NCBI GenBank assembly: GCA_025463055.1
Contig: JAOAPV010000070.1
Coordinates: 62,001-126,000, forward strand
DNA from: Candidatus Acidiferrum typicum
Lineage (GTDB): Bacteria > Acidobacteriota > Terriglobia > Acidiferrales > UBA7541
DNA length: 64,000 bases
Reading direction: 5' to 3'
In this document: positions 37,027-38,239 of the stretch, one piece after another
How positions within the stretch are numbered: position 1 is the first letter of the stretch
Layout: every line of letters begins with the position of its first letter
Translations under genes and position numbers: made by a program
Notes under the pieces: generated by a model
The model's database searches: none
What the model was told of the DNA's origin: nothing
Seen by the model: only the letters and a program-made list of their open reading frames with translations

Positions 37027-37196
37027 GCTGGTCTCACGACGCGCCGGGAATCCATCATGATGAGCATTTTTGTTGAAGGAAGCCTATCCGACGAAGCATG
37101 TAAGCAGGGTCGTGGTCGGCGTGTAGTGCGGGCGGGAGATGCTGCGGGACTGTGCCGAGCAGTCAAGAATAGCGTTATGGGCTGCGTTTTTTGAAG

Positions 37197-37225
37197 TTGA
37201 CACGCACGATTTGCGGTGCTAAAAA
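37197..37225 (+). promoter_or_regulatory. Strong sigma70-like promoter of a gene-free transcript
   Basis: TTGACA (37197-37202), exactly 17 bp, TAAAAA (37220-37225). Predicted start near 37231. It points away from the FNT gene, and the first downstream element is a set of hairpins and a terminator rather than a gene. Confidence 0.65.
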
Positions 37226-37230
37226 GCGCG

Positions 37231-37400
37231 CAGACATGCCCTCTGGTGGTAAGTCTCTTACCGCATTGCGGCGACATCACGCGAGTGAGTCACCAGACCT
37301 GCCTGGCAGGGCAGGCCTGTTTTGCTGCTGAGGAATGTCAGCAACACCCCACCACCCCGGGAGGTGAGAACGGAAGCGTTTTCACCTCCTTTTTATTTTC
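37231..37400 (+). ncRNA. Candidate structured RNA (sRNA or riboswitch-like leader)
   Basis: About 165 nt between a promoter and a terminator, with no ORF. A 7-bp closing helix (37242-37248 with 37291-37297) encloses three small hairpins: GTAAG/CTTAC with loop TCT, CGC/GCG with loop ATT, and TCAC/GTGA capped by GCGA. Further helices are CCTGCC/GGCAGG (37298-37315) and GCTGA/TCAGC (37327-37342). The layout resembles a multi-branched aptamer followed by an expression platform. The ABC ATPase gene starts 44 bp after the terminator stem, so control by attenuation is possible; an independent sRNA is equally possible. I recognise no known RNA family. Confidence 0.5.
37360..37400 (+). terminator. Intrinsic terminator of the candidate RNA
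   Basis: GGAGGTGAGAAC (37360-37371), loop GGAAGC, GTTTTCACCTCC (37378-37389), a 12-bp stem with one G-U pair, followed by TTTTTATTTT. Confidence 0.85.
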
Positions 37401-37443
37401 TTCCTCGACGCACTAAACTCTTTAGGACATACCGGCTTACGCC

Positions 37444-38239
37444 ATGGCGCACAGTCCAAGCCCACATCCTCTTCTCGCCCTGAAACACGTCACCGTGATG
37501 CGGGGAGAGCACCCGGCGCTGCAAGATATCACCGTACGCGTTGAAGCCGGCGAGCATGTCTGCATTTTGGGACCGAATGGCTGCGGCAAGTCCACGCTGA
37601 TTAAGACCATCACGCGAGAATGCCATCCACTTGCTAAAGAAGGCTCTTCCATCTCGATTCTCGGGCGGGAGCGCTGGAACGTGTTTGAGTTGCGTTCCCT
37701 GCTAGGCATCGTTTCTCCGGATCTTTTTGGCCTCTTGCACGACCGATGCGACTGGCCGCGACGTGGTGCTTTCCGGTTTTTTCGGTAGCACACGGATTTT
37801 CCCGCATCACTCGCCCAGTACAGATCTGCTCGAGAAGAGCGAAGTGTCGCTCGCGCGTTTGGGGATTACACACCTTGCGGCGCGCCCAGTGGCGCAGATG
37901 TCCTCAGGTGAAGCGAAGCGCACGCTGATCGCTCGCGCGTTGGTGCACGAACCGCAAACTCTGCTCTTCGATGAGCCCAGCAATGGACTCGACATTGGAG
38001 CGCAGATGCAATTGCGCGACACCATGCGCTCTCTCGCGAGAGGCGGGCTGGGCATTCTCTTGGTCACGCATCATGTTTCGGAAATTATTCCGGAAATTGA
38101 GCGAGTCGTGTTGCTGCGCGAAGGCCGCATCGTTGCCGACGGGTCAAAGCAGGGGACGCTTACATCGGAGAAACTTTCCGCTCTCTTTGGCGCAGACATT
38201 CACATCGCAAGCCGCGACGGGTACTTTTCCGCATTTTGA
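37444..38239 (+). pseudogene. ABC transporter ATP-binding protein (ModF/YlmA-like) with a frameshift
   Basis: Two frames join into one 264-residue ATPase. The first (37444 to about 37728) has Walker A G-P-N-G-C-G-K-S-T (43-51) and I-S-I-L-G-R. The second (to 38239) has the signature Q-M-S-S-G-E-A-K-R, Walker B T-L-L-F-D-E-P-S-N-G-L-D and the H-loop L-V-T-H-H. They meet at the run TTTTT (37724-37728): removing one T gives S-P-D-L-L-A-S-C-T-T-D-A-T-G-R-D-V-V-L-S-G-F. The domain order fits single-domain ModF/YlmA-like ATPases. Either the gene is dead or the T run is miscalled. A candidate regulatory RNA lies directly upstream. Confidence 0.78.

Follow-up and report, generated by a model that had tools for sequence, protein, structure and literature searches.

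A predicted autonomous small RNA gene with a conserved A/C-rich tract in one family of Acidobacteriota

The window analyzed here, a stretch of 64,000 nucleotides from Candidatus Acidiferrum typicum (contig JAOAPV010000070.1, positions 62,001 to 126,000), contains around positions 37197-37400 a segment lying between two genes. As a sequence-only reading of the window had described, an FNT (formate/nitrite transporter) gene (Pfam PF01226) is divergent from the segment, and an ABC ATPase frame starts on its other side at 37444, 44 nt past 37400. In the window this ATPase is split into overlapping frames (37444-37788 and 37727-38239, + strand), and in several relatives a single frame spans about 260 codons; the split is an assembly frameshift or a decaying gene. 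The features of the segment, with the evidence for each, are as follows.

37187..37192, + strand: T run, putatively UP-element-like (sequence; alignment of 30 loci)
37197..37202, + strand: -35 hexamer TTGACA (motif scan; 55 of 57 loci)
37217..37225, + strand: extended -10, TGC-TAAAAA, after a 17 nt spacer (TG-N-TA at spacer 17-18 in 55 of 57 loci)
37232..37399, + strand: predicted small RNA of about 168 nt, start approximate (promoter and terminator positions; covariance model match at 37231-37390)
37233..37250, + strand: 5' strand of P1, the conserved closing helix (partner 37324-37339; covariance model alignment, pair counts)
37253..37291, + strand: P2 arm of the three-way junction, a variable hairpin (four pairs unformed in the window copy)
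37293..37320, + strand: P3 arm, a hairpin around CCTGCCTGGCAGGGCAGG (folding; covariance model alignment)
37324..37339, + strand: 3' strand of P1 (covariance model alignment, pair counts)
37341..37358, + strand: A/C-rich tract GCAACACCCCACCACCCC, proposed pairing site (conservation; mostly unpaired in predictions)
37359..37390, + strand: intrinsic terminator stem-loop of 14 pairs (terminator scan; covariation in the upper part)
37390..37399, + strand: terminator T tract TTTTTATTTT (terminator scan)

The promoter proposed earlier, TTGACA-N17-TAAAAA, lies at 37197-37225 and is the sole match to this pattern (spacer 16-18) in the 64-kb window, where shuffles expect 0.03. A standard sigma70 scan of the window did not return it (0 found), because its last hexamer is off consensus. 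The start of the predicted RNA (37232) was set 7 nt past the -10, and the T run adjoins the -35 box on its upstream side in most members of the genus (alignment of 30 loci). The promoter was searched at 57 loci (L002 left out) with a script that required TTGAC-N, a spacer of 16-19 and TG-N-TA. TTGAC-N and TG-N-TA separated by a spacer of 17 or 18 were found at the expected position, outside the sequence covered by either of the covariance models described below, in 55 of these loci, and the two that failed the pattern (L026 and L082) yet retained TTGACA. Judged from sequence, the RNA appears to have a promoter of its own.

Folding of this strand was significantly more stable than expected, in agreement with the structured transcript first proposed (-76.5 kcal/mol for 37225-37400 vs. 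-56.6 ± 4.4 kcal/mol in shuffles; z -4.5, reached by 0 of 200). The 7-bp closing helix of that proposal (37242-37248/37291-37297), however, did not hold. It was missing from the window's own minimum-energy fold, and among 26 homologues it showed no double changes, two of its seven pairs formed in only 1 and 2 sequences, and 67.6% of its cells paired vs. 68.6% in its shuffles. Covariation in this helix had been set by the sequence-only reading as a condition of its proposal, and on that count the helix was rejected; the RNA rests on another one, and the conserved closing helix was placed instead at P1 (37233-37250/37324-37339), which closes a three-way junction and shows covariation within the genus. 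Most genus members, when folded singly, gave this shared junction. From an alignment of 18 rows (A3, without 12 of the first 30 loci), RNAalifold recovered, unguided, the terminator, P2, P3 and the inner part of P1, while P1 was not recovered from a first, unrefined alignment of 29 rows.

In the alignment of 34 genus members fitted to the covariance model, double changes were found in 32 of 56 pairs (vs. 10.9 ± 2.2 in shuffled alignments, reached by 0 of 500), and slid structures reached at most 14 such pairs. Since an alignment of this kind leans towards the structure, counts were also made on a MAFFT-only alignment of 26 members (A2, without L002, L026, L027 and L029). Over the whole RNA, this gave 22 double-change cells (vs. 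5.7 ± 2.8 shuffled, 0 of 500) and 8 double-change pairs (vs. 4.3 ± 1.5, reached by 9 of 500; 9 and 10 in two slid controls), and further pair types were not raised (40 vs. 42.1 shuffled). From both sets of counts the predicted genus fold is well supported, with part of its covariation dependent on the alignment. In the window copy, P1 is retained by means of G-U pairs and has two partnerless positions, and five of its P2/P3 pairs are unformed; these imperfect pairs may be the reason for its deviant minimum-energy fold. Among genera, the 5' domain varies in sequence, length and fold.

The tract and the first letters of the terminator were strongly conserved across eight genera, the tract taking the form CAACA(A)CCCC-ACC(C)(C)-ACCCC, with changes in length and a few divergent members. 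Within the genus, the tract (37341-37358) was the best-conserved segment of the RNA (mean column identity, gaps set aside, of 0.93, vs. 0.86 for the terminator and 0.82 for the 5' domain). Its mean unpaired probability, as predicted for 55 members, was 0.72, vs. 0.35 for the 5' domain, and exceeded 0.5 in 49 of them, the tract being predicted as more paired than unpaired in 6. By prediction, it would constitute a conserved, unpaired C-rich seed. Masking of the tract by a GGUGG motif of the 5' domain, attractive in single folds, was rejected against dinucleotide shuffles: complementarity between the two reached p<0.05 in 2 of 55 members, with a mean z of +0.27 in the 31 genus members (the tract of L021 and L079 having been trimmed too short by the script rule).

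The sequence-only reading was right about a terminator with a T tract and short on its length, given as 12 bp: the stem at 37359-37390 has 14 pairs. This predicted intrinsic terminator belongs to the RNA itself, and its stem covaries across seven genera. In a MAFFT-only alignment of 27 sequences (A6, the 31 rows of A5 minus L080, L081, L083 and L084), there were 27 double-change cells (vs. 6.7 shuffled, 0 of 500), and double changes occurred in 7 of the 14 pairs (vs. 4.3 ± 1.2, reached by 13 of 500). The GGAGG/CCUCC pairs near the base of the stem were invariant in the 27 sequences, and the upper pairs covaried. Two sequences outside this count, L080 and L081, retained GGGAG, with different subsequent letters on both strands.

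A 221-bp DNA query matched 31 of 35 congeners (E 3.4e-5 or better) and none of 25 genomes outside the genus at that value (best 0.0024), and the flanks of the RNA had no conserved columns in the alignment of 30 loci. Homologues were also searched by covariance models, as the sequence-only reading had suggested. R1 was built on the RNA body (18 sequences, promoter excluded) and R2 on the 3' module alone (27 sequences from seven genera); the 18 and 27 sequences used for the models match by construction. With R1 (E up to 0.1), 67 of 399 genomes of the class were matched, all within the GTDB family of the window and including 33 of 35 congeners (34 of the 36 members of the genus, counting the window's own genome). 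Among 396 genomes drawn from the phylum, a draw whose count of other family members is not given, R1 matched the window's own genome only. Of 89 family genomes searched, R2 recovered the 67 already matched by R1, 66 of them with at least 40 bits and one, strong by R1, cut by a contig end; the genomes of L080, L081, L083 and L084, excluded from the model, scored 58.1, 58.3, 43.7 and 43.8 bits, respectively. At 40 bits, R2 was present in genera g1 (34 of 36 genomes), g26 (15 of 20), g29 (6 of 6), g25 (4 of 4), g28, g30 and g33 (2 of 2 each) and g2 (2 of 3), and was not detected in g23 (1 genome), g24 (5), g27 (5), g31 (2) or g32 (1). Outside the family, there was no match to R1 and none to R2 at 40 bits (best 37.2), in searches that, beyond 40 genomes, ran stricter filters under which weak matches were lost. 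The layout of promoter, body and terminator, with the promoter examined at 57 loci, recurred in 67 of the 89 family genomes, among them 33 of 35 congeners and members of seven further genera. With this recurrence, the covariation and the unconserved flanks, the earlier suggestion of an independent structured RNA was borne out.

Each genome had one strong match, with weaker second matches also present in the R1 and R2 searches. R2 matches below 40 bits occurred both inside and outside the family. Twelve of these places were retrieved (7 outside, 5 inside); none had the promoter pattern within 250 nt, and several sat, by eye, behind a stop codon like ordinary terminators. Two loci of genus g31 (L155 and L156) showed, behind an apparent coding gene, a C-rich run and then a GGGAAGC terminator, without the promoter pattern, which could be a degenerate or ancestral form of the RNA. 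The core motif was found in 27 stretches from named records, assigned to subdivision 2 (gp2) and other Acidobacteria MAGs, Candidatus Acidiferrum typicum, Candidatus Acidoferrales, Terriglobia and one Bacillota, consistent with the earlier placement of the element in Acidobacteriota. The exception, 'Bacillota bacterium isolate HOT.MB2.40' (L099), looks like a mislabel; its matching genome, G277, is placed in the family of the window.

The genes around the RNA differed among loci. FNT was found upstream on the other strand only at the window's own locus among 30, and a leader of FNT was rejected on this basis. Of 33 genus loci with usable downstream sequence, 28 had the ABC ATPase gene directly after the RNA and on its strand (24 of 29 plus 4 of 4). 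As for the other five, it was 2.6 kb from the RNA in L087, was not present within 2.6 kb downstream in L088, and was not found in the stretch examined in L089-L091 (longer stretches of L027, L026 and L029), where a PilZ gene lay about 100 nt off, followed by citrate synthase, both on the other strand. In other genera, none of the 24 loci keeping the RNA had an ABC gene downstream (approximately 1.2 to 2.5 kb examined); in L077 and L079, a distant match to ABC, with 31-34% identity, lay 2.1 kb upstream. Ten of these 24 loci (g26, g28, g29) had a hybrid histidine kinase gene upstream on the same strand, and a molybdopterin oxidoreductase lay upstream in four (one by Pfam, three by BLAST clustering). 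Genes downstream varied as well (PilZ, GGDEF, STAS and others). The hybrid histidine kinase in this position was noted in L062, L064-L066, L068, L070, L072, L075, L078, L093 and several g1 loci. Since the neighbours change while the RNA stays, over 33 genus loci and 24 loci of other genera, the RNA gene is independent of its neighbours and not tied to one downstream gene.

These data bear directly on the other proposal of the sequence-only reading, a riboswitch or attenuator of a transporter gene. In such a cis-acting leader of the downstream gene (here the ABC ATPase), the terminator would be the switch; the order of genes in most of the genus is compatible with it, and the C-rich tract could in principle, by eye, pair with the GGGAGG of the terminator. 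However, the displaced or missing ABC gene in 5 of 33 genus loci, with PilZ in its place in three of them, the failure to find this gene downstream at any of the 24 loci from other genera, and the lack of conservation 3' of the terminator rule out a leader of the ABC gene by synteny and make a cis-acting leader of any kind very unlikely. Still less credence is given to a short coding transcript, for a small protein or a leader peptide. The earlier statement that the element has no ORF was inaccurate to the letter, as a mechanical ORF of 66 codons crosses it (37216-37416), yet it was sound in substance: among 31 genus members, the longest complete frame within the predicted transcript ranged from 7 to 54 codons and changed its position and frame, none was shared, and indels in the tract and in P2 shift the frames. 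A coding transcript was rejected on this ground.

A divergent housekeeping RNA such as 6S is equally hard to sustain. The perfect -35 box, the length of about 170 nt, the structure and the single copy would all suit it, but 6S RNA has the shape of a long bulged hairpin, and the RNA described here folds as a three-way junction and was detected in a single family among the genomes searched. Moreover, no RF00013 covariance match was found at the element, and a 6S-like match was found elsewhere in this genome (G000:C124:26244-26457, L061; 32.4 bits, E 1.6e-4, below the cut-off of 46.4), on which grounds the 6S identity was rejected. By its match, this separate locus is likely the 6S RNA of the window's genome, and 6S may be under-detected in this lineage. 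Nor was any other family of Rfam 15 recognized: at the gathering cut-off, only two tRNAs were found in the window, both away from the element; the element itself had only four sub-threshold matches at E up to 10 (E 1.9 to 9.4); and six homologue loci matched no family at gathering.

A small RNA gene as such is well supported by promoter, fold, terminator and distribution together. Our preferred reading, which we hold to be probable on balance, is that of an autonomous, single-copy small RNA gene, conserved across most of this family of subdivision 2 Acidobacteriota, that would act in trans through the tract. In the proposed mechanism, the RNA would be transcribed from a sigma70-type promoter of its own and would stop at its own intrinsic terminator; the genus-specific 5' domain (a three-way junction in the genus of the window) would protect and present it; and the C-rich tract would act in trans by base-pairing to short G-rich sites in a restricted group of mRNAs, altering their translation or stability. 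An antisense mechanism of this type, by pairing of the tract with mRNAs, is probably at work, and is proposed because the conserved, exposed C-rich tract beside the terminator resembles the C-rich regions of RoxS. RoxS is related to staphylococcal RsaE. Like the RNA described here, it is a small RNA with C-rich regions able to pair with G-rich target sites, as described for Bacillus subtilis (PMC5419742). It differs from it in having several such regions rather than a single A/C tract beside the terminator, in coming from Firmicutes, another phylum, and in that the present RNA matches no Rfam family.

Candidate targets were searched at 645 predicted starts, validated by their Shine-Dalgarno signal (AGGAG, 98 vs. 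12.8 per equal length upstream). Complements of the tract at these starts were not in excess over those of shuffled tracts (88 vs. 91.1 for 6-mers, 20 vs. 23.3 for 7-mers, 5 vs. 5.1 for 8-mers). Compared with gene interiors, there were 5 vs. 1 complements for 8-mers (1 of 150 shuffled tracts gave as high a ratio) and 88 vs. 70 for 6-mers (10 of 150), which may be at most a hint of pairing at gene starts; duplex energies were the same at starts and in interiors (means of -10.42 and -10.44). Two candidates were followed in 12 and 13 of 30 retrieved loci, with starts placed approximately; strong pairing was not consistently retained, a predicted duplex at least as stable as -20 kcal/mol being seen in 4 of the 12 and 3 of the 13, the window's own included. 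In the window's genome, 14-mer complements of the tract were no commoner than in the control, numbering 26, the element included, vs. 29 for the reversed control. The tests based on starts covered 0.85 Mb of the 5.33-Mb genome, and a small regulon would escape them. In six loci of congeners (L202, L204-L208), TATAAT and a subsequent G-rich run (GGGGGTCAT or similar) occur just before the start codon of a protein of approximately 400 aa; this may represent a very short 5' UTR, whose conserved G-run could contact the C-rich tract. As for Hfq, the only match in the window's genome was sub-threshold (L123:1145-1486, + strand; 22.5 bits vs. a Pfam cut-off of 27), possibly a divergent Hfq-like protein.

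The absence of a conserved antisense target among these starts and in the two candidates followed is one of the observations that would suit a different role for the same tract. Rho prefers unstructured C-rich RNA, and the (A)CCCC repeats, whose number varies, might bind Rho or another C-preferring RNA-binding protein, the RNA acting as a decoy that titrates the bound protein or as a scaffold delivered by it. A tract that changes in length while keeping its A/C composition, that is mostly unpaired in predictions, and that adjoins a terminator base unchanged in 27 sequences while the pairs above it covary, is consistent with this. On the other hand, there is one strong match per genome, and a tract of approximately 10-20 nt is small for a titrating RNA; we consider this decoy or scaffold possible, although rather unlikely. 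In a specific form, which seems more doubtful still, the tract would serve, rather than as an antisense seed, as a C-rich site for docking or titrating a protein, linked to the invariant GGAGG...CCUCC base of the terminator, making a family-wide decoy (of Rho or a C-binding regulator, for example) whose 5' domain is rebuilt in each genus.

The trans-acting small RNA, as preferred here, can be set beside other known systems. In the CcsR/cuckoo RNAs of Alphaproteobacteria, a pyrimidine-rich single-stranded motif is the presumed working part, a likeness shared with the tract. The present RNA differs from them in that it is one gene, has a promoter of its own and matches no Rfam family; CcsR1-4 of Rhodobacter sphaeroides are described as co-transcribed with a DUF1127 gene and excised by RNase E (PMC10253847). 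Acido-1 and Acido-Lenti-1 (RF01686, RF01687), presented in PMC2864571 as candidate non-coding RNAs of Acidobacteria that are not tied to mRNAs, are alike in that respect, but neither model matched the window at gathering or the element at E up to 10. With 6S RNA (RF00013), the likeness lies in an autonomous, structured RNA of similar length (model of 187 positions), and the difference in the separate 6S-like locus and the unmatched element reported above. No title or abstract opening among the matches listed in a literature search, with subscription papers mostly outside its scope, describes this RNA. We conclude that it represents a new, previously uncatalogued RNA family of a known kind, namely an autonomous, probably trans-acting small RNA.

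Acidobacteriota are common in soil, and very few small RNAs are catalogued for them; a 2022 review gives 4 distinct annotated small RNAs for the phylum (PMC9029176). The combination of a variable 5' domain with a conserved C-rich tract over eight genera shows which part of the RNA is kept by selection. The RNA is distributed family-wide within a clear boundary, is described by two covariance models and has an evident segment for mutation, and therefore offers a concrete way into RNA-based control in subdivision 2.
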